Source: Bacillota bacterium
Lineage (GTDB): Bacteria > Bacillota > Clostridia > Oscillospirales > Oscillospiraceae
DNA: 17,273 nt
Direction of reading: 5' to 3'
Assembly: GCA_017861415.1 (NCBI GenBank)
Contig: JAGFXS010000007.1
Location: 1 to 17,273 of the forward strand
The position numbers and the translations under genes were made by a program. Shown one piece after another: positions 8,767-17,269 of the stretch. The first letter of the stretch is position 1. Each line of letters starts with the position of its first letter. Under the pieces are notes generated by a model. It was not told the origin of the DNA, ran no database searches, and was given only the letters and a program-made list of their open reading frames with translations.

Positions 8767-9852
8767 ATGGTGCAACAGGACGGGTCAATTGCCTATTTTT
8801 TGGGGGCAAATTCGGGGGATGGCTTTTTTTCACTGTATGATGAATTGATTGAGGAGAGCCGAGCAGCAGCATTTTATGTGCTGAAAGGTGGACCGGGTTG
8901 CGGAAAATCTACACTGATGAGAAAAGTAGGGCAGAAGCTGGAGGAAGCTGGCTTTGCCGTAGAGTACATCATTTGTTCGGGGGACCCAGACTCTCTGGAT
9001 GGGATCCTAATTCCGGAAAAGGCGATTGCCATGGTAGACGGCACATCGCCCCATGTGATAGAACCTTCTTACCCCGGGGCACTGGGGCATTACATCAACC
9101 TGGGGAAATATTACGATAGAAAAGCGCTGCGTAGCAGCGGTGAAGAGCTGGTAAGATTGACCAAGGCATATAAAAGTTGTTACACCCGCGCCTATCAATG
9201 TCTCCGGGCGGCGCGAGAGATTCGGAGAAAGGGAGAACAGGTTTTTCTGACCAATACCGCCATCTCTAAGGCGGAAAAGCGGGCGGATGGCATTTTGTCC
9301 CGGGAACTTCGGAAAAAGGTGGGAGGACATGGTAAGGAGGTCCGCAGATTCCTGAGTGGAATTACCTGTGAGGGAATTCTGTCCCTCCATGAAACTGTGT
9401 ACAGTCAATGTAAGCGGGTTTACGAGCTTCAAGAGAGCTGCGGCCTAGCCTCTGTCATGCTCAATCGAATCAGGGAGGGTGCCCTGGTGGCGGGATACGA
9501 TCTGGTGGTCTGCCCCTTGGGAGAAGATCCTGAAAAGCTTGCCCACATTCTGATACCGGAGCTTTCCCTTGCCTTTGTGACGACAGTAGGCGGAGAAACG
9601 CTGGGAAAAAGACCCTATCGCCGAATTCGTATGGATACCATCGCAGACCGCGAGCTGCTGAAGGAGCATCGGAGCAAGCTGCGCTTTTCCAACCGCATGG
9701 CAGACGAGTTGGTGAAGGACGGGATCCGCGAGCTTCGAGGGGCAAAGGCTTTCCATGACCAGATGGAGGCCCTCTACCATCCCCACGTAGATTTCAAAGG
9801 CGTAGATAAATTAACAGCTGAACTCACTCGGGAAATACTGTCATTTTCATAA
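8767..9852 (+). CDS. PRK06851-family P-loop ATPase of unknown function
   Basis: The 361-residue protein begins with IAYFLGANSGDGFFSLYDEL, followed by the Walker A motif GGPGCGKS at 41-48. It then shows the hallmark of the PRK06851 family, MVDGTSPHVIEP, at about 89-100, just after an aliphatic strand that supplies a Walker-B-like aspartate (Asp91). The family occurs mostly in spore-forming Firmicutes and has no established substrate. The second half (about 210-350) contains further Rossmann-like strands (YDLVVCPLGEDPEKLAHIL, LSLAFVTTVGGETLG) but no second P-loop that I can see. GGAGGA at 8755-8760 lies 6 bases before the ATG. It probably shares a transcript with the DUF6514-like gene upstream and is followed by a terminator. 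Family assignment is fairly sure; function is open. Confidence 0.8.
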   Translation: MVQQDGSIAYFLGANSGDGFFSLYDELIEESRAAAFYVLKGGPGCGKSTLMRKVGQKLEEAGFAVEYIICSGDPDSLDGILIPEKAIAMVDGTSPHVIEPSYPGALGHYINLGKYYDRKALRSSGEELVRLTKAYKSCYTRAYQCLRAAREIRRKGEQVFLTNTAISKAEKRADGILSRELRKKVGGHGKEVRRFLSGITCEGILSLHETVYSQCKRVYELQESCGLASVMLNRIREGALVAGYDLVVCPLGEDPEKLAHILIPELSLAFVTTVGGETLGKRPYRRIRMDTIADRELLKEHRSKLRFSNRMADELVKDGIRELRGAKAFHDQMEALYHPHVDFKGVDKLTAELTREILSFS

Positions 9853-9858
9853 ATGCAG

Positions 9859-9899
9859 AGAGAGAATCCTAGGTCCGCAGACGCGGCAGGATTCTCTCT
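9859..9899 (+). terminator. Probable intrinsic terminator after the PRK06851 ATPase gene
   Basis: A 12-base perfect stem, AGAGAGAATCCT (9859-9870) with AGGATTCTCTCT (9888-9899), encloses a smaller CCGC/GCGG hairpin. Only two T follow, so termination may be partial. It also lies beyond the stop of the leftward four-cysteine gene and might serve both directions. Confidence 0.6.
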
Positions 9900-9938
9900 T
9901 CGTGACACTAGTTATAAAATTTTAAGCAGTGAAGAATT

Positions 9939-10145
9939 TTACAGTTTAAAATCATCATCCTTCAGGCGACTAAAATCGGGAACCGCCGGACGAGGCGGCA
10001 CGCGTTTTAATGGGTCGTAACGAAACTTGTCACAGGAGTCCTCGGGAACCATGACCCCTTTTTTGATACAGAGGATTTTGTTGCCCGAAGGGATACCACG
10101 GCTACAGTAGCTGCACCGGGGCGGTATCTTGTTGGAAAACAGCAT
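9939..10145 (-). CDS. Small four-cysteine protein downstream of ylbJ
   Basis: This 68-residue protein starts MLFSNKIPPRCSYCSRGIP and carries four cysteines: Cys11, Cys14, Cys26 and Cys38. The pattern CxxC-x11-C-x11-C fits a small zinc or iron-sulfur site. A conserved-looking FRYDPLKRVPPRP stretch and an acidic, aromatic C terminus follow. I recall similar small proteins in Oscillospiraceae but know no function. An in-frame ATG eight codons earlier (10169) has no ribosome site, whereas GGAGGAG lies 7 bases before the ATG at 10145, so I use the latter. It begins 36 bases after the ylbJ stop and is probably co-transcribed with it. Confidence 0.7.
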   Translation of the reverse strand: MLFSNKIPPRCSYCSRGIPSGNKILCIKKGVMVPEDSCDKFRYDPLKRVPPRPAVPDFSRLKDDDFKL

Positions 10146-10181
10146 GATAGACTCCTCCAGACGGCCCAAATGCCGAAATGC

Positions 10182-11354
10182 TCAATGTCTGTTCTCATTA
10201 TACTGCAAGGGCAGACCACTCACAAGCACTTTTTTCCGCCGGTGGAAGAGGATGATTACACCCGAAAGGCCCCAAAGGGCCACAAGCTCTTGATGAAGCA
10301 GGGCGAGCAGGGGAGTGCTTCCAAGGAGGGTTGCCTCCAGAAAGGCCGGAGCCGGGGTAATGCCTGCGGGCAGGAGAACGGGAGCCAAGACGGCGGTAAG
10401 GCAAGCCGCTAACAGGCCATGGAGGAGTTTTCCTGTAAAATATGGGGCGCGGCTGTCTGTCAGACGGTCCAAAAAAGGGAGAGATTGGCAGTGGACCGAC
10501 AGCCCGCCCCAGCCCATGATGAAGGAAGCCACAGGGAGCGCCAGCGGAGTGGCGCCCACTTCGGACAGGGAGCAGACCCCGGTGGAGAGTTCAAAGATTC
10601 CAATGAGTAGGCTTTGGCAGAGGGCAGGAGACAAAATATCCGGAAATAGGCCAGAAAGAAACCCTGCCGCCATGGGCAGCAGACCTGAAGTCTGCATCAG
10701 GCGAATCAGTACGGTAAAAAGAATGACAAAGGCGCAAACATTCAAGGTTGATGTGAAGGAATCCCTCACGCTGTTGGGGAATTCCTGCGAAAAGCTGGCA
10801 GAATGATTGGGCAAAGGCAGGGGTGTGGCCTTTGTGCTCATCTCTGTGTTGCGGCGGGGACGATAGATCAGCCCCACCAGTAAGGCGGCGGCCCAATGAG
10901 TACAAAGCAGAAAAAAACCCGCTTCTTTGGAGGCGAAAACGCCTACCCCCGCTACACTGAGAAGGAAGCCAGGGCCGCAGAGATTGCAGAAGGCGGACAG
11001 CCGTCGGGCCTCCTCCCAACTGCACTCACCCGCCTCCCGGAGCATAGCGGCGGTGCGCAGTCCCACGGGATAGCCGCCCACCAAGCCCAGGAGCAGGGGC
11101 GCGGCGCAGGTTCCACGCATTCGGAAAAGGGGGGCCATCAGGGGGCCCAGAACTCGTCCCGCGGAATGGGACAGCCCCAGGCTGATGAACAGGGAGGAGA
11201 ATACGAAAAAGGGAAAGAGAGAGGGGATGATGACCTCTGTGCAGATGGCAAGGCCCTCTCTGGCGGCCGTCGCACTCTCTTGAGGGTAGCGAATCAGCAA
11301 AGCGCCGAAGCCCAGAAGGAGCAGGGCGGGAAGCGGACGAAGGAACTTCCTCAT
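10182..11354 (-). CDS. ylbJ: Sporulation integral membrane protein YlbJ
   Basis: This 390-residue, very hydrophobic protein is the YlbJ type of nucleoside-recognition/gate-domain membrane protein. SLFPFFVFSSLFISLGLS and LLLGLVGGYPVGLRTAAMLR in the first half, and CAFVILFTVLIRLMQTSGLL with FIMGWGGLSVHCQSL in the second, mark two gate-like repeats with about eight to ten membrane segments. In B. subtilis YlbJ is a sigma-E-controlled mother-cell protein needed for heat-resistant spores; its transported substrate is not established. The open frame could begin at 11450, but an in-frame ATG at 11354 has GGAGG 8 bases upstream and gives the normal N terminus MRKFLRPLPALLLLGFGALL, so I start there. 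A TATACT lies at 11423-11428, without a convincing -35. The small four-cysteine gene follows. Confidence 0.88.
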   Translation of the reverse strand: MRKFLRPLPALLLLGFGALLIRYPQESATAAREGLAICTEVIIPSLFPFFVFSSLFISLGLSHSAGRVLGPLMAPLFRMRGTCAAPLLLGLVGGYPVGLRTAAMLREAGECSWEEARRLSAFCNLCGPGFLLSVAGVGVFASKEAGFFLLCTHWAAALLVGLIYRPRRNTEMSTKATPLPLPNHSASFSQEFPNSVRDSFTSTLNVCAFVILFTVLIRLMQTSGLLPMAAGFLSGLFPDILSPALCQSLLIGIFELSTGVCSLSEVGATPLALPVASFIMGWGGLSVHCQSLPFLDRLTDSRAPYFTGKLLHGLLAACLTAVLAPVLLPAGITPAPAFLEATLLGSTPLLALLHQELVALWGLSGVIILFHRRKKVLVSGLPLQYNENRH

Positions 11355-11532
11355 GGCAGGCACCTCCAATGGGAAATGCTTATGCTGCAGGGGGAAAAAT
11401 ATTGCATGTCCCCATGGGGCATAGTATAATGTTTCTCGTATGCTGCCCATGACAAAAGGATAAGCTTAGCCCTTTGCTGAGGGTTTCTGTGAGGGAAGTT
11501 CGGGCAGGGAAATAAAGAAACGGAGAAAATCC

Positions 11533-12537
11533 ATGAAACGGATTCTGTATTTTGTGCCTGTGCTGCTTCTGCTGTTATCAGTCTCCGGCTGCGGAGAGAC
11601 TGCCCAAAATCAGGGCGTTACCAGAACCAGCTATATGCTGGATACCGTAATTAATATTACCCTATACGGCGGGGAAGAGGCTAACAATGAGGAACTTTTA
11701 ACCCAGACCATGGAGGAGATCAATCGGCTGGAAAACCTGCTCAGTGTGGAGCGGGCGGGCAGCGATTTGGACCGGCTGGCAAAGGCGGCGGGTTTGGATT
11801 GGGTGGAGATATCCCCGGAATGCGAAGAAGTGCTGACAAAGGCCAAGGAATATTGGACCCTATCCGGAGGCTATTTTGACGTGACCACCGGCCCACTCAT
11901 TGATCTTTGGAACATTCGGGACGGTACCGGGCACTACCCCACGGAAGAGGAACTGTCAAATACCATGCCCCTTGTCTCCTCGGAATGGCTGCTGGTAGAG
12001 GATGGACGAGCCTTTCTCTCCCATCAGGGAATGAAGGCCAATCTGGGCGCCATCGCCAAGGGCTACATTGCAGATAAAGTGAAGGAATTTCTCTTGGAGC
12101 GGGGCGTAGAGCACGCCATCATCGATCTGGGTCGCAACATTCTTCTGATTAACGGAAGGCCCGACGGAACCAATTTCCGCATCGGCGTGCAGGACCCCTT
12201 TGATACAGAGGGCAGTGCACGGTATGTGTTGTCTGCTACGGGGAAAAGCGTGGTGACGGCGGGAGTCTATGAGCGGTATTTTATGTACGAGGGCGTGCGC
12301 TATCATCACATTATGGATCCCTTCACCGGGTTCCCTGCAAACCGGGGGCTTGCCTCAGTGACCATCGTCTCTGATAATTCTGCCCAGGGCGATGCCCTAA
12401 CCACCACCTGTCTGCTGCTGGGGCCCGAGGATGGGCTGGCGCTGGTGGAGTCCATACCCGGCGTGGAAGGGCTTTTCATTGGCGAAGATGGTGAGGAATG
12501 GTTCAGCAGCGGTTTTGAGGCCTATCTGGCGGAATAA
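11533..12537 (+). CDS. apbE: ApbE-family FAD:protein FMN transferase, lipoprotein
   Basis: The 334-residue protein attaches FMN from FAD to threonine in target proteins such as Rnf/Nqr subunits or extracytoplasmic flavoproteins. It has a lipoprotein signal peptide (residues 1-19) with the lipobox VSGC, so Cys20 would be lipidated and the enzyme faces outwards. Family motifs are present: MKANLGAIAKGY (167-178), the glycine loop DLGRN (198-202), HHIMDPFTG (258-266), and the metal-binding segment DALTTT (287-292). The loop normally reads GGN; here the middle residue is Arg201, a possibly tolerated change. A GGAG site precedes the ATG by 9 bases. It diverges from ylbJ and stands alone, with no flavoprotein partner gene in the window. 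A strong bidirectional terminator follows. Confidence 0.92.
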   Translation: MKRILYFVPVLLLLLSVSGCGETAQNQGVTRTSYMLDTVINITLYGGEEANNEELLTQTMEEINRLENLLSVERAGSDLDRLAKAAGLDWVEISPECEEVLTKAKEYWTLSGGYFDVTTGPLIDLWNIRDGTGHYPTEEELSNTMPLVSSEWLLVEDGRAFLSHQGMKANLGAIAKGYIADKVKEFLLERGVEHAIIDLGRNILLINGRPDGTNFRIGVQDPFDTEGSARYVLSATGKSVVTAGVYERYFMYEGVRYHHIMDPFTGFPANRGLASVTIVSDNSAQGDALTTTCLLLGPEDGLALVESIPGVEGLFIGEDGEEWFSSGFEAYLAE

Positions 12538-12544
12538 AGAACAA

Positions 12545-12594
12545 AAAACACCCATGATTTACAGGACGCTATGCCTGTGAACCATGGGTGTTTT
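12545..12594 (+). terminator. Bidirectional terminator between apbE and the recombinase-spoVT gene
   Basis: A 21-base stem with one mismatch and one wobble runs from AAAACACCCATG (12545-12556) to CATGGGTGTTTT (12583-12594) around an 8-base loop. It has T-tracts both ways: TTTT on the plus strand, and TTTTTTGTTC on the minus strand. It ends 8 bases before the stop of the leftward gene, as expected for the native 3' end of spoVT. Confidence 0.92.
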
Positions 12595-12601
12595 CGGTGG
12601 G

Positions 12602-13054
12602 TTAGGCCTCCATGTGCTTCCCCAGAAAGCCGGCAATGGTTTGCGCCAGCTTCACCTCAATTTCATCGGAGTTGAGGTTGTCGCGGGGGCCGCAGAAGAT
12701 CACACAGCCCATGGGGTCGCTGTCGGTGAGGATAGGGGCCGCGGTTTCCAGAAAGAAGCCGTCGGACTCCTCGCAGACGGCGACGGGGGCGTTATCTCGA
12801 TGGTGCTGATAGATCTGCCGTCCCTCCATAATTTGCTCCAGCTGGGGAGAGATGCGCTTGTCGGTGAGCGCGCGCTTGGCACTTCCGGCCACGGCGATGC
12901 AGTTGTCCCGGTCGGTGATGACCACGGTGCGGCCAGTGGTCTTGTGGAGGGTATCGCAGAGCTGGGCGGCGAATTCCCCAAGACCGCTCATCAAGGAATA
13001 TTTCTTAAAGATGACGCCGCCTTCTTTGTCTGTATAGATTTCCAGCGGGTCACC
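12602..13054 (-). pseudogene. spoVT: 3' part of spoVT (codons about 31-180), lacking the AbrB-domain start
   Basis: The last 150 codons of the fused frame match SpoVT from its residue 31 to the end. The remembered B. subtilis protein reads GDPLEIFVDRDGEVILKKYS at this point. Later landmarks also agree: a GRTVVITDRDNCIAVAGSAK segment, AAPILTDSDPMGCVIF and the ending AGFLGKHMEA. Intact SpoVT is about 178 residues: an AbrB-type DNA-binding domain with the RRIDDLGRVVIPKEIRRT core, and a GAF-like sensor domain. SpoVT is made late in the forespore under sigma G and tunes sigma-G genes. Only the second AbrB strand and the GAF domain remain, so alone this piece cannot bind DNA as SpoVT does. It has no promoter of its own, and the native terminator follows. 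It may be a reversible disruption rather than a dead gene. Confidence 0.88.
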
Positions 13055-14806
13055 ACTGCTGATAACATTGATTTCAAAAACTTTGTCCACCCGGCGGATG
13101 CTGGACTGAACGAGGCTTTCCTGTAAGCTGTCCATGATATCAGACTCAAAAGTTGCAGGCACTGCTCCCTTTGACATGGCGGCGCTGACAGCTTCCTCCA
13201 GGGAAGCCTGTCGGGGTGTACATCGAAGTAGGCTGTCAATGTCGGCTTTAAGCCTGATATCCACATGACTCTCAAAGATGCGGATTTCGTCAACAATTAG
13301 CTCAATGTCCGTTTTCGCCAGAGAAGGCTTGGTAAGGATATCATCAAAAACCGACAGGACGGTTTTTGCCTTCCGATTCGACTGTGCAATGGCATTGTTT
13401 TTCTGGATGGCTAGGGTCAACTGGTTCTTCAGTCCTTCCATGCGGAGAGAGAGTTCCTCCTCGATTTCGCCATAGATTTCATCCAGCTGCCCCTGCCGCC
13501 CGGGATGAAGGGTAAGTTCCCGGATCTTCTGCTTCTTGGTGGATTTGAGCTGCTGCTTGACCTCCTCCAGTTCCTTTTCAAGGAGGTCTACCAGACTCCG
13601 GTTCTGGGCCAGAGAGGAGGGGGATTCATCAATGGTTTTCTGCAGGGCCGACACCATGTCTGAGGCATTGTCCCGCACCAGTCGGATATACCGCTTTAAA
13701 AGGTCATCCAGCAGATCCACCCGGATATGGTGGGAGGAACAACCGGCGGTGCCCCGGCGGTGGTAGGTTCCGCAGGTGTAGGCCGGTTTGAGATCTGGGC
13801 GGCTCATGGAGAACATGGGGGCGCCGCAGTCCCCGCACCGAAGCAATCCCGAATAATTATTTTCGTATTTCTTTACCCCGCGATAATTGCTTTTGGTGCG
13901 CAGCTTCATCTGCTCCTGCGTTTTGGTAAACTGCTGCTCCGTAATAATGGCGGGGTGGTGGTTTTCAAAGACAAACTGCTCCGCATTCTCGGTTTTGCGG
14001 TCGCTGCCATTGATTTTGGTGCGCTGGTATTTATGCTGGCGCAGGGTGCCTATATAAAAATCATTGGTTAGGATTCCCTGTACAGTGGCAATACTCCACT
14101 GGGGCTTGGCCTCGCGTCTGACGGTTTCTCCCGCCGCTAGGCGGCGTTCGTTTTCCAGGGTTCGCGGCGTGGGAATGGCCTGCTCCGTAAGCCAATTGGC
14201 GATTTTTTTGTATCCCCAGCCATCGAGATATAGCTCATAGACTTTTAGGACAATGGCGGCCGCGGTTTCTTCTACCTCAATGGTTTTGGCCGACCAATTT
14301 TTCACATAATAACCATAGGGTACGGCGCAAAGCCAATTGCCACTCTGCTGACGGTGAGACACAATGCTGCGTACCTTCTTGGAGGTATCGGTGACCGGCA
14401 TTTCGTTCAGAAGAAAGCGAAACTGAATTTGCAGCCACTCATCCTCAGTGGGATAATCAATGTTGTCTCCTATGGAGATGATCCTCACGCCGGCATCCCG
14501 CAGGTCTTCTAGCTCTACCAGACCGCGGGAATTGCGGCGGGCAAACCGGGAGAAATCTTTAACCATTAGGATAGCTGCGTCACCCGCCATCAGTCTGCGG
14601 CGCATGGTCTGATATGCGGGGCGCTGCTCGAAGGTGTAGCCAGAGCGGTCACGATCCTGAAACAGCTCCAGCGCTGCGCCGGGGAAGTTCCGCTTTGCGT
14701 AATCTGTAATGATGGCGCACTGGTGCTCAATGGAAGTATTGTCTTTATCCAGTTCCTCATCCACGGAGATACGTGCATAGCCATAAACTGTCAATGTTAT
14801 CACCAC
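12602..14806 (-). CDS. Large serine recombinase fused in frame to the C-terminal part of SpoVT
   Basis: One 734-residue frame holds two proteins. Residues 1-584 are a complete large serine recombinase. The catalytic domain has ARIS with Ser14, SIEHQ, a DRDRSGYTFEQRPAY segment and KDFSRFARR; the recombinase domain covers about 160-300. A zinc ribbon uses Cys324, Cys327, Cys345 and Cys356, and is followed by a coiled coil (about 380-470) and a typical closing segment, IELIVDEIRIFESHVDIRLK. Residues 585-734 are the end of SpoVT: GDPLEIYTDKEGGVIFKKYS, then the GAF-like domain ending AGFLGKHMEA. The AbrB start of SpoVT is absent. Known large serine recombinases end near 500-580 residues, so the tail is extra. 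The start is a GTG at 14806 with no Shine-Dalgarno, behind a good promoter. The simplest reading is a recombinase at the edge of an integrated element that crossed into spoVT. Confidence 0.93.
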   Translation of the reverse strand: MVITLTVYGYARISVDEELDKDNTSIEHQCAIITDYAKRNFPGAALELFQDRDRSGYTFEQRPAYQTMRRRLMAGDAAILMVKDFSRFARRNSRGLVELEDLRDAGVRIISIGDNIDYPTEDEWLQIQFRFLLNEMPVTDTSKKVRSIVSHRQQSGNWLCAVPYGYYVKNWSAKTIEVEETAAAIVLKVYELYLDGWGYKKIANWLTEQAIPTPRTLENERRLAAGETVRREAKPQWSIATVQGILTNDFYIGTLRQHKYQRTKINGSDRKTENAEQFVFENHHPAIITEQQFTKTQEQMKLRTKSNYRGVKKYENNYSGLLRCGDCGAPMFSMSRPDLKPAYTCGTYHRRGTAGCSSHHIRVDLLDDLLKRYIRLVRDNASDMVSALQKTIDESPSSLAQNRSLVDLLEKELEEVKQQLKSTKKQKIRELTLHPGRQGQLDEIYGEIEEELSLRMEGLKNQLTLAIQKNNAIAQSNRKAKTVLSVFDDILTKPSLAKTDIELIVDEIRIFESHVDIRLKADIDSLLRCTPRQASLEEAVSAAMSKGAVPATFESDIMDSLQESLVQSSIRRVDKVFEINVISSGDPLEIYTDKEGGVIFKKYSLMSGLGEFAAQLCDTLHKTTGRTVVITDRDNCIAVAGSAKRALTDKRISPQLEQIMEGRQIYQHHRDNAPVAVCEESDGFFLETAAPILTDSDPMGCVIFCGPRDNLNSDEIEVKLAQTIAGFLGKHMEA
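13035..13075 (-). other. Probable attachment-site junction (recombinase/spoVT boundary)
   Basis: Similarity to SpoVT begins sharply at codon 585 (13052-13054), where INVISS gives way to GDPLEI. In SpoVT the matching position is preceded by LRIRE. The crossover core of a serine integrase should therefore lie at or shortly downstream of 13054 on the minus strand, around GGTGACCCGCTGGAAAT. The partner site is not in the window, so the exact core cannot be fixed. Confidence 0.5.
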
Positions 14807-14826: not shown

Positions 14827-14855
14827 ATTGTAAAACGGTGCGGGCGGAAAGTCAA
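14827..14855 (-). promoter_or_regulatory. Promoter of the recombinase gene
   Basis: On the minus strand TTGACT (14850-14855) is followed after 17 bases by TACAAT (14827-14832), each a 5 of 6 match. Transcription would start about 15 bases before the GTG at 14806, leaving a very short AT-rich leader with no ribosome site. Confidence 0.6.
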
Positions 14856-15126: not shown

Positions 15127-16617
15127 TTGAGTATAATTTTTGAAAAATTAAAAGAAGCAATGTTGTCGGTTGTATCCATCGTGCTGCTTGTACTGATTCT
15201 GAACTTTACCTTAACCCCTCTGGAACCGGACCAGCTAATCCGGTTTTTGCTTGGCTCTTTGCTGATTGTCATTGGGCTGGCTATCTTCCTACTGGGCGTT
15301 GAACTGGGGCTTGATAAAATTGGTCAGCAGATGGGCTCCGCCATTGCCAAATCCAATAAAGTGTGGATTGTTGTAATCGTCGGCATATTGCTGGGATTCT
15401 TCATCTCTGTTGCCGAGCCAGACCTGCACATTTTGGCGGGTCAGGTGGATGCTGTTACCTCAGGATTGGTGTCTAAGCTGGTCATTGTGATCATTGTCTC
15501 TGTTGGCATCGCGCTGCTTTTGTCTTTGGGACTGGTTAGAATCGTTTACAACATTTCCCTGCACAAAATGCTAACGGTACTATATGGTATTATTTTAATT
15601 CTTGCTATTTTTACGTCGCCGGAGTTCTTATCCATATCCTTTGACGCATCTGGCGCCACCACGGGAGCCCTGACGGTGCCCTTCATCCTTGCCTTGGCGC
15701 TGGGCGTGTCCGGGCTGAAAAAGGATTCTGAGGCTTCTGAAGAGGACAGCTTCGGCCTTGTGGCCATCACGTCCACAGGTGCCATCATATCCGTTATGAT
15801 TATGAACATCATCAGCGGGGCGGATAAAATCACAGGCACCATTGATGTGTCAGGCACCAATTCCGGAACCATTTTGTCTCCCTTTATTCATAAGCTACCT
15901 GTTGTGGCATCTGAAATTTTCCTGGCACTGCTGCCGATACTTATTATTTTCTTAATTGGCCAGAAGTCCGTCTTCAAATTGACCCCAAAAGCTAGGAATA
16001 GAATTCTGATCGGCATGTTATATTCCTTTATCGGATTAGTTCTGTTCCTTACCGGGGTGAACGCCGGATTTATGCAGGTAGGCACCATTGTAGGGGCGCA
16101 AATTGCCTCCATGGAGAATAAGACTTTACTCATTGTGATTGGATTTGTTCTGGGTTTGGTCACTATACTGGCCGAACCTGCTGTCTATGTACTGACAAAC
16201 CAAATTGAAAATGTGACCAGCGGCTACGTCAAGCGGAAAACGGTTCTGATTGCTCTGGCCATGGGCGTAGGGGTCTCTGTTGCCCTGTCAATGATCCGCA
16301 TCCTGATTCCTGAGCTGAAGCTTTGGCATTACCTGCTGCCGGGGTATATCATCGCGCTGGCCATGTCATATATGGTGCCAAAGCTCTTTGTGGGTATCGC
16401 CTTCGACTCCGGCGGGGTGGCATCTGGGCCTATGACAACCACCTTCATTCTGGCCTTTGCCCAGGGGGCGGCCGCTTGTATTGAAGGGGCGGATGTGCTG
16501 TTAGATGGTTTCGGTATCATAGCCATGGTGGCCCTGACCCCGCTGATTGCGCTGCAAATCTTGGGTCTCATCTACAAATTTAAGTCCAGAAAAGGAGGAC
16601 TTGAACATGACGCCTAA
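15127..16617 (+). CDS. DUF1538 membrane protein with two repeats
   Basis: This 496-residue protein has about twelve to fourteen hydrophobic segments and matches the DUF1538 family, probably a transporter of unknown substrate. The two halves are clear repeats: AEP at 96-98 and again at 349-351, each followed by an aliphatic stretch and an (D/N)xVTSG turn; and FDASGATTGALTVPF at 172-186 against FDSGGVASGPMTTTF at 426-440. These glycine-rich FDxxG loops probably form the core of a pseudo-symmetric transport site. The start is a TTG at 15127. GGAGG lies at 15109-15113, which is 13 bases away and longer than usual, and no better in-frame start exists nearby. The P-II-like gene overlaps its end by 11 bases, so the two are translated together, and the P-II protein probably senses a ligand and gates the membrane protein. 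Confidence 0.85.
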   Translation: MSIIFEKLKEAMLSVVSIVLLVLILNFTLTPLEPDQLIRFLLGSLLIVIGLAIFLLGVELGLDKIGQQMGSAIAKSNKVWIVVIVGILLGFFISVAEPDLHILAGQVDAVTSGLVSKLVIVIIVSVGIALLLSLGLVRIVYNISLHKMLTVLYGIILILAIFTSPEFLSISFDASGATTGALTVPFILALALGVSGLKKDSEASEEDSFGLVAITSTGAIISVMIMNIISGADKITGTIDVSGTNSGTILSPFIHKLPVVASEIFLALLPILIIFLIGQKSVFKLTPKARNRILIGMLYSFIGLVLFLTGVNAGFMQVGTIVGAQIASMENKTLLIVIGFVLGLVTILAEPAVYVLTNQIENVTSGYVKRKTVLIALAMGVGVSVALSMIRILIPELKLWHYLLPGYIIALAMSYMVPKLFVGIAFDSGGVASGPMTTTFILAFAQGAAACIEGADVLLDGFGIIAMVALTPLIALQILGLIYKFKSRKGGLEHDA

Positions 16618-17269
16618 TATGGAAAATATCATATTTATCTGTGTCATCGTTAACCGAAACGTTGGAAGCAGAGTGCTGCACGCGGCAAGAAAATATGGGC
16701 TTTCCGGCGGTACCATATTGCTCGGGAGGGGGACAATTAAAAATCCCCTTCTGGAGGCGCTCGCCTTAAATGATGTCAAGAAGGAAATTGTATTTCTTGT
16801 GGCGGAAGAGTCTGTTGGATTGAAGTTTTTGGAGAATTTAAGCAAAGAACTGAAGCTGCAAAAGCAGAACCATGGCATTGCCTTTGTCAGAGATGTAGCC
16901 CGTGTGTGCGGCACTAAGTGCCTCAGCTGCAGCGGCCTTCAGGATATTGGAGATGAGGAGAACGCAATGTATCAGTCTGTTTATATCATTGTTGATCGGG
17001 GAAAGGGCGAAACGGCCGTGGAAGCTGCCACCAAAGCTGGGGCCAAGGGTGCCACCATTATCAGCGCAAGAGGATCGGGCATTCATGAAACCAGCAGGCT
17101 GTTTAACATGGAGATAGAACCCGAAAAAGAGATAGTGCTGATTATCTTAAAAAGCGAGATCGCTGAAAAGGTGGTCTCTGCCGTTCGTACTGAAATGGAC
17201 ATAGATAAGCCCGGCAACGGCATAATATTTGTTCAGAATGTTCGGCAGGTTTATGGATTATTTGAATAA
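16607..17269 (+). CDS. Tandem P-II-like regulator paired with DUF1538
   Basis: The 220-residue protein holds two P-II-type domains. The first (about 5-100) starts with NIIFICVIVNRNVGSRVLHA and ends in HGIAFVRDVARVCG. The second (about 120-218) starts with SVYIIVDRGKGETAVEAATK and ends in NGIIFVQNVRQVYG. Both show the beta-alpha-beta pattern, a GAKGATIISARG-like loop and the closing strand of P-II proteins. Canonical GlnB has one domain of 112 residues, a T-loop tyrosine and forms trimers; here a fused pair is seen and no GlnB uridylylation motif. The frame is open upstream to 16547, but AGGAGG lies 7 bases before the ATG at 16607, which I choose. It overlaps the DUF1538 gene by 11 bases. A role in sensing a nucleotide or metabolite and controlling its membrane partner is inferred from known P-II/transporter pairs. 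Confidence 0.85.
   Translation: MTPNMENIIFICVIVNRNVGSRVLHAARKYGLSGGTILLGRGTIKNPLLEALALNDVKKEIVFLVAEESVGLKFLENLSKELKLQKQNHGIAFVRDVARVCGTKCLSCSGLQDIGDEENAMYQSVYIIVDRGKGETAVEAATKAGAKGATIISARGSGIHETSRLFNMEIEPEKEIVLIILKSEIAEKVVSAVRTEMDIDKPGNGIIFVQNVRQVYGLFE

Follow-up and report, generated by a model that had tools for sequence, protein, structure and literature searches.

What is a gene for a large serine recombinase doing in front of a sporulation regulator, in the same frame and with no stop between them? The question is raised by a stretch of 17,273 nucleotides (the window), which is the whole of contig C22 (JAGFXS010000007.1) in a 1.27 Mb, 152-contig genome bin, 73% complete, of a member of the Oscillospiraceae. 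On its minus strand a single frame of 734 codons (14806-12602) encodes the recombinase and the last 150 residues of SpoVT. We conclude that this frame almost certainly marks one end of an island inserted in spoVT, whose own attachment site (attP) lies within the recombinase gene. The best overall explanation, which we consider probable, is a mobile island at a fixed site in spoVT that would be excised by its recombinase together with a small neighbouring protein, R, so rebuilding spoVT.

The frame itself agrees with a preliminary description of the window made from its letters. The large serine recombinase is complete, with Ser14 and the zinc-ribbon residues Cys324/327/345/356 as stated there, and Pfam assigns Resolvase (residues 7-158), Recombinase (181-302), Zn_ribbon_recom (319-375) and SpoVT_C (609-733; E 1.1e-36), all above gathering scores. 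The recombinase is homologous to SprA/YokA of SPbeta (9dxh, E 4.6e-16), and the SpoVT part matches the solved SpoVT structure 2w1t (E 3.8e-26). The SpoVT match begins, as described, at GDPLEI inside the frame, at residue 585 and base 13054, which is spoVT codon 31; TIGR02851 matches only from profile position 26, and compared with intact SpoVT the first 30 codons are missing. A terminator-like hairpin follows the end of spoVT (Table 1). Because the database copy P0002 has 730 residues, the recombinase perhaps starts at the TTG at 14794.

The simplest account of such a junction would be an assembly misjoin at about position 13055, and the window is indeed one contig of a fragmented bin. However, a scan of named genomes gave 373 related stretches, and of the best 80 loci 75 carry the same in-frame fusion; the junction recurs in a one-contig 4.3 Mb genome (G078) and in Ruminococcus bicirculans chromosome II ('complete sequence'). 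We have therefore rejected a misjoin, whose probability is negligible. Of the remaining five loci, L091, L092 and L111 are unfused, L070 stops at the junction, and in L099 a frameshift precedes the junction. The titles of the named loci include Ruminococcus flavefaciens, Anaerotruncus massiliensis and Flavonifractor sp. An100 besides R. bicirculans chromosome II. All of the best 120 of 7,993 protein database matches contain the same four Pfam domains, some of them named Lawsonibacter, Intestinimonas or Pseudoflavonifractor. In our alignment A1 the window's row ends four residues short of the junction.

Whole and split spoVT were not found together. We surveyed 101 genomes from 100 genera of the window's family, counting throughout among the matches listed. 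An uninterrupted spoVT was seen in 60 genomes, including one cut at position 126 (G025) and one with a single in-frame TAG (G022:C37:49065-49574). The C-terminal part lies inside a frame of 719-818 codons in 16, none had both forms, 19 had short spoVT matches only and six had none. A SpoVT profile search of 50 of the 80 named genomes found 47 that are split without a visible full-length copy, 40 of which have an orphan N-terminal half (matching from position 1 as far as 31-42). Full-length spoVT occurs in exactly the three whose recombinase is unfused. The preliminary description had held that a complete spoVT elsewhere, together with the lack of an orphan half on the right, would tell against a regulated element. 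The profile search found none in the window's bin, at its 73% completeness, nor in any fusion genome searched (16 family and 47 named genomes, at least two being in both sets: by coordinates G051 is G134 and G084 is G131, neither of them among the 20 same-contig pairs below).

Where, then, is the missing 5' half? It had been predicted beyond the right edge of the window, next to a copy of the junction sequence. The profile search found two further pieces in the bin, on contigs C58 and C144. The piece at C58:4624-4722 is a spoVT 5' end that reads 30 residues up to GDP, ends in MRIREGDP, and continues into 28 foreign residues; it shares with the window half an 11-bp core, GGTGACCCGCT. The predicted half thus exists in the same bin with its copy of the core, but lies on another contig. 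Its promoter (TTGGATAATTTGTCCG...TTCAAATAATAAG) is a close match to the one before uninterrupted spoVT in G044, a genome of the same genus, and because of this match we rejected the reading of the C58 piece as an unrelated AbrB gene. The short AbrB gene on C144 encodes a separate protein. Intact spoVT in G044 has the same downstream neighbours as the window half: since the four genes at 8767-12537 (encoding an ATPase-like protein, a small protein, a nucleoside-recognition 'Gate' membrane protein and ApbE) stand in the order found there, what lies left of the frame in the window is native 3' flank, and the junction marks where the element starts. The other genes of C58 could not be placed beside the G044 locus. 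An apparently frameshifted EF-G-like gene follows the orphan at 4751-6583 of C58 (L010), and a relative of it lies about 6 kb downstream of the C-terminal half in L135. The orphan half, the shared core, the recurring junction and the uninterrupted same-genus relative bear out the proposal that spoVT is the integration target.

Site and orientation are read from the same comparisons. Both halves lie on one contig in 20 genomes, always on one strand, 11-54 kb apart and in excision order in 19. The core is directly repeated, and when 36 pairs of halves are aligned at it, excision would rebuild spoVT in frame, as the preliminary description had proposed. Two or more orphan N-terminal halves per genome were noted in G080 and also in G101, G107, G114, G116, G117 and G141. 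In G080 (L054, 2834-5887) an intact spoVT is preceded by a tandem array of two whole orphans and one partial repeat, and the fetched stretch contains no recombinase. On one contig of G126 (L162, L163, L199) are an orphan half, an unfused recombinase with a native-type tail and an intact spoVT; the orphan and intact promoters are nearly identical, and a single insertion does not account for the arrangement.

The foreign residues on the orphan halves locate attP. In the 45 orphan halves that we read, a nearly invariant spoVT part is followed by a homologous tail, with the consensus DPLQTTLTPWERFCFAMLDLAKRLGWGK over 47 orphan sequences. The recombinase-side arm and the tail arm form an inverted repeat. 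In 35 of the 36 pairs its axis falls in GGCGACCC between the G and the A, at the central dinucleotide common to attP and the empty target site, attB. On average 15.4 of 20 positions are complementary at attP, compared with 9.3 for shuffles, 8.8 for attB and for attL, and 9.8 for attR; the arms from the window and C58 reach 14/20 at the family axis (fixed-axis binomial, 3e-5). A native tail had been predicted beforehand, and a database search with the joined recombinase and tail from G084 gave as the best of 13 matches P0122, a recombinase of 602 residues without SpoVT_C that ends in NVISDGDPSQTTLAWWEQFSFGILNLEKRQGWDRTS; the other 12 are weak matches and carry SpoVT_C. The unfused recombinase of L091 has a homologous tail with one stop inside. 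From the symmetry of attP and the existence of P0122 it follows, on the sequence evidence, that attP lies inside the recombinase gene and that integration swaps the last approximately 28 residues of the enzyme for 150 residues of SpoVT. In the integration-dependent immunity of mycobacteriophages, attP lies inside the repressor gene. As there, integration alters the 3' end of a gene of the element; here, unlike there, the gene is that of the recombinase itself and the new end is host SpoVT. One could argue from the prevalence of in-frame fusion (75/80 loci) that the fused protein is the functional product, its SpoVT_C domain sensing or oligomerising to control the recombinase, with rejoining of spoVT secondary. 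The frame follows, however, from the position of attP alone, and the orphan 5' halves and their promoters are conserved too; we regard this explanation as very improbable.

The island family is widespread and horizontally mobile, with varied cargo. Distances between recombinases and between SpoVT_C domains correlate with a Mantel coefficient of 0.61 (79 loci), and L109 and L123 show a strong mismatch, with recombinases 93% and SpoVT_C 39% identical. The SpoVT_C tree (115 rows, 81 split and 34 intact) has 17 changes of state, at least 12 of them by supported branches. Cargo was sampled as 19 different proteins from nine elements, ten submitted to PADLOC and ten to Pfam. These included type I restriction systems, complete in their three subunits, in L152 and L161; RhuM in L152; in L156 a type II methyltransferase next to an ATPase-Toprim-like protein; in L159 a relaxase and an ATPase-Toprim protein; and, across L041, L155, L157 and L160, histidine kinases, an ABC transporter and an FtsX permease. 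No phage structural protein was recognised by PADLOC or Pfam among these 19, a sample of proteins rather than of whole elements. A search for free forms of the recombinase matched 407 phage and 279 plasmid records, no plasmid covering more than 80% of the query. The faecal contig H1 covers the whole query including the SpoVT part, and H2 reaches residue 577 at its contig end; of ten IMG/VR loci, three (L142, L143, L145) are fused and L144 breaks off at the junction.

Mobility and varied cargo, together with a spoVT that is split in 16 of 101 family genomes among the matches listed, would also be expected of an ordinary site-specific island that disrupts spoVT in hosts which tolerate its loss, with no developmental excision. 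We consider this unlikely, as both halves are intact and constrained across many genera. Pairwise comparison of 26 codons in 47 orphan halves gave 16,040 synonymous and 1,030 non-synonymous codon differences, and the same codons in 33 intact genes gave 8,258 and 296, pairs in either set not being independent. Such strong constraint at the protein level fits regular reunion with the C-terminal half, because a fragment of a DNA-binding domain would serve no obvious purpose by itself. A sigG model also matches all 67 genomes tested, none above its cut-off but 55 strongly (E <= 1e-100). In addition, the promoters of R described below are of forespore type, and spoVT is needed for mature spores in Clostridioides difficile, according to PMC3789822.

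The C. difficile gene is described there as being under sigma-F and sigma-G, and its mutant as giving no heat-resistant spores; sigma-F and sigma-G promoters are alike, a G upstream of the -10 marking sigma-F (PMC3789822). We find sigma-F/G-like promoters before 35 of 47 orphan halves (shuffled mean 0.9) and 29 of 32 intact spoVT genes (shuffled 0.5). Matches to forespore patterns vary with the way in which the patterns are formulated: consensus strings served for sigma-F, G, E and K, whereas the regular expression and the tightest, 'hybrid' pattern were devised after the spoVT promoters had been viewed. Among the upstream regions compared, 83 of the recombinase and approximately 50 of R, a few come from near-identical genomes (L049/L141, L056/L098). 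The recombinase promoters are sigma-A-like in 70 of 83 cases (shuffled mean 9.6), and two of the 83 are of forespore type, which is no excess. Half-sites resembling those of attP overlap these promoters, 51 of 83 scoring above the 95th percentile of shuffles, and hint at self-regulation or self-repression by the recombinase; the window's own promoter fails this comparison (1.1 versus 5.2).

R is a conserved small protein (51 distinct sequences in the alignment), with a confidently predicted fold (mean pLDDT 96). It is mostly encoded upstream of the recombinase, sometimes with a gene such as RhuM between. Sigma-F-type promoters precede 19 of 49 R genes, compared with 15 of 582 control genes and one of 83 recombinase genes. 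By a position weight matrix trained on intact spoVT promoters, 14 of the 49 R genes exceed the 95th percentile of controls (p = 3.7e-10), and the recombinase set is shifted slightly (4/83, p = 0.024). The -10-like stretch GGGAATACTA precedes an R-like gene on C58. We suggest R as a candidate directionality (excision) factor.

These promoters bear on when and where the island would leave. Excision that rebuilds spoVT probably takes place in sporulation. The recombinase promoter is of a constitutive type, a native-tail recombinase is present in the database, and on the tree the intact state reappears among split rows; all this would suit unregulated, low-rate excision in growing cells, where only the excised minority finishes sporulation and spores are selected for loss of the island, a form of bet-hedging. 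SpoVT_C is, however, absent from just one of the 13 matches to the joined G084 sequence, the promoters of R point to regulation, and serine integrases of this kind are described as usually needing a directionality factor for excision (PMC5025042, PMC6957869). We judge this explanation slightly less likely still than an ordinary island. Alternatively, excision could follow skin and SPbeta in being limited to the mother cell, with spoVT acting there too in these hosts. This would obey the rule for nearly all known elements (PMC6957869, PMC4191935), and a looser sigma-E pattern with one mismatch does match eight of 47 orphan and five of 32 intact spoVT promoters. We think it improbable, since spoVT promoters are predominantly sigma-F/G-like and strict sigma-E and sigma-K patterns match none of the 49 regions upstream of R.

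Comparison with characterised systems sets the spoVT island apart. Nearly all intervening elements interrupt genes of the mother cell and are therefore retained in the spore genome (PMC6957869). The spoVT islands share with them, at the level of sequence, the splitting of a sporulation gene of which relatives have an unbroken copy, a gene for a large serine recombinase close to one end, and a short, directly repeated core. A mother-cell target, a feature that is usual rather than strictly defining, is absent, because spoVT promoters are sigma-F/G-like and C. difficile spoVT is reported to be under sigma-F and sigma-G (PMC3789822). The preliminary description had called the element skin-like: this stands in that a sporulation gene is split, and falls short in that the islands form a mobile, widespread family with attP in the recombinase gene and a forespore rather than a mother-cell target.

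Closest in control is skinCd, in sigK of C. difficile, a serine recombinase element that likewise splits a sporulation regulator. PMC5025042 describes a recombinase, CD1231, expressed constitutively from a sigma-A promoter, and a small element protein as developmental switch, the directionality factor CD1234, whose control by sigma-E confines excision to the mother cell. R is a candidate for such a switch. The target sigK belongs to the mother cell but spoVT to the forespore, and the promoters of R are sigma-F/G-like (compare PMC5025042). The control logic looks like that of skinCd with the compartment exchanged; in the spoVT islands, unlike skinCd, the recombinase gene itself contains attP. 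SPbeta, which interrupts spsM of Bacillus subtilis (SprA/SprB), has a homologous recombinase, SprA/YokA, inverted-repeat attachment sites and a target rebuilt in frame (PMC4191935, PMC6957869). SPbeta is, however, a prophage said to leave only the mother-cell genome (PMC4191935), whereas the proteins that we examined from nine spoVT islands concern restriction, signalling and transport. The gin element in gerE of Bacillus cereus ATCC10987 is, from the description of it in PMC5595907, a non-prophage island of 28.6 kb in a sporulation transcription-factor gene, with serine recombinases and a short core; it occupies a mother-cell gene in one strain, in contrast to a single family in a forespore gene of many genera. 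A full-text search of open-licence PMC papers recognised no paper describing spoVT or sigG as such a target.

We propose the following cycle. The island is integrated at a fixed site, codon 32 of spoVT, and carries the gene for the large serine recombinase, which in the free circle ends in a native tail of approximately 28 residues; once the island has integrated, this tail is found on the orphan spoVT 5' end. A crossover between the two island ends would free the circle and restore spoVT exactly. Recombinase would be made in growing cells from its sigma-A-type promoter, and excision would wait for R, expressed from forespore-type promoters, so that spoVT is rebuilt in the compartment where SpoVT acts. 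As spoVT is a forespore gene, regulated excision there would change the inherited chromosome, and the island would have to be re-inserted or lost. Excision from the forespore (germline) chromosome is a tentative suggestion to which we give somewhat less than even weight. We hold equally tentatively to its extension, a germline rearrangement in which the island is cut from the forespore chromosome, carried in the spore as a circle and re-inserted at outgrowth by the same recombinase, now with its native tail, the C-terminus (native tail or SpoVT_C) acting as the direction switch.

Several observations weigh against this overall explanation. The two halves in the window's bin are on different contigs and so physically unlinked. 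In G031 (L045, L046), alone among the same-contig pairs, the order is reversed, the C-terminal half coming first and the orphan 18.6 kb further on, on the same strand. The weakest attP pair has 10/20 complementary positions, a score that 39% of shuffles attain. Recent repeated insertion could also account for the constraint on the orphan halves. Both the sigma-F-type pattern and the matrix pick out a minority of R genes, and the sigma-G pattern hardly separates R (11/49) from recombinase promoters (15/83). R has no match in sequence or fold to a known family, known directionality factors included, and the R-like gene of the window's bin (L010 on C58, 4232-4414) lies upstream of the orphan, whereas elsewhere it is beside the recombinase. 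Finally, this bin has no strong sigG match, just one of 5.6e-48, perhaps to a different sigma factor.

Elements of this kind may reside in forespore genes more generally, since sigG, itself a forespore gene, is split beside serine-recombinase-like genes in some of the same genomes. It is apparently interrupted near FSTYGVPM in L212/L213 (G102), L214/L215 (G004), L216 (G138), L217 (G051) and L218 (G148). In four genomes the 3' part directly follows a serine-recombinase-like gene, these being unlike in sequence except that those of G004 and G138 are alike; in G148 the 5' part is followed by a convergent serine-recombinase-like gene. These sigG-adjacent recombinases were recognised by motif, not by profile.

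The features of the window are collected in Table 1. Its DUF1538 and P-II-like genes were found in no other fetched locus.

Table 1. Coordinates in the window of the fused gene, its attachment-site sequences and neighbouring features
Feature	Position	Strand	Evidence
Large serine recombinase part, residues 1-584	13055..14806	-	Pfam domains, Ser14, zinc-ribbon cysteines, SprA/YokA homology
spoVT 3' part, codons 31-180 and stop, in frame with recombinase	12602..13054	-	SpoVT_C, TIGR02851, 2w1t
attR core, 11 bp, GGTGACCCGCT on minus strand, common to orphan half on C58	13044..13054		Sequence comparison
Recombinase-side arm of attP; inverted repeat with tail arm on C58	13055..13074	-	14/20 complementary at family axis
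Sigma-A-type recombinase promoter, TTGACT-17 bases-TACAAT	14827..14855	-	Promoter pattern
Terminator-like hairpin after spoVT	12545..12594		Inverted repeat then T; read by eye
Native 3' flank of spoVT, four genes	8767..12537		Order as beside intact spoVT of same-genus G044
Genes for DUF1538 protein and P-II-like protein, presumed cargo, element side of recombinase	15127..17269	+	Pfam; membership inferred from position only

The spoVT islands offer natural serine integrases whose attP and attB can be read from sequence and whose C-terminus would be exchanged by their own reaction. Known intervening elements are thought to persist because no cell except the doomed mother cell loses them; a widespread island family inside a forespore regulator would either break this rule or be forced to cut itself out and re-insert by way of the spore. 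If regulated excision of the island is correct, spore formation in common gut and rumen bacteria, which spread between hosts by spores, would be tied to islands able to carry restriction and defence genes.

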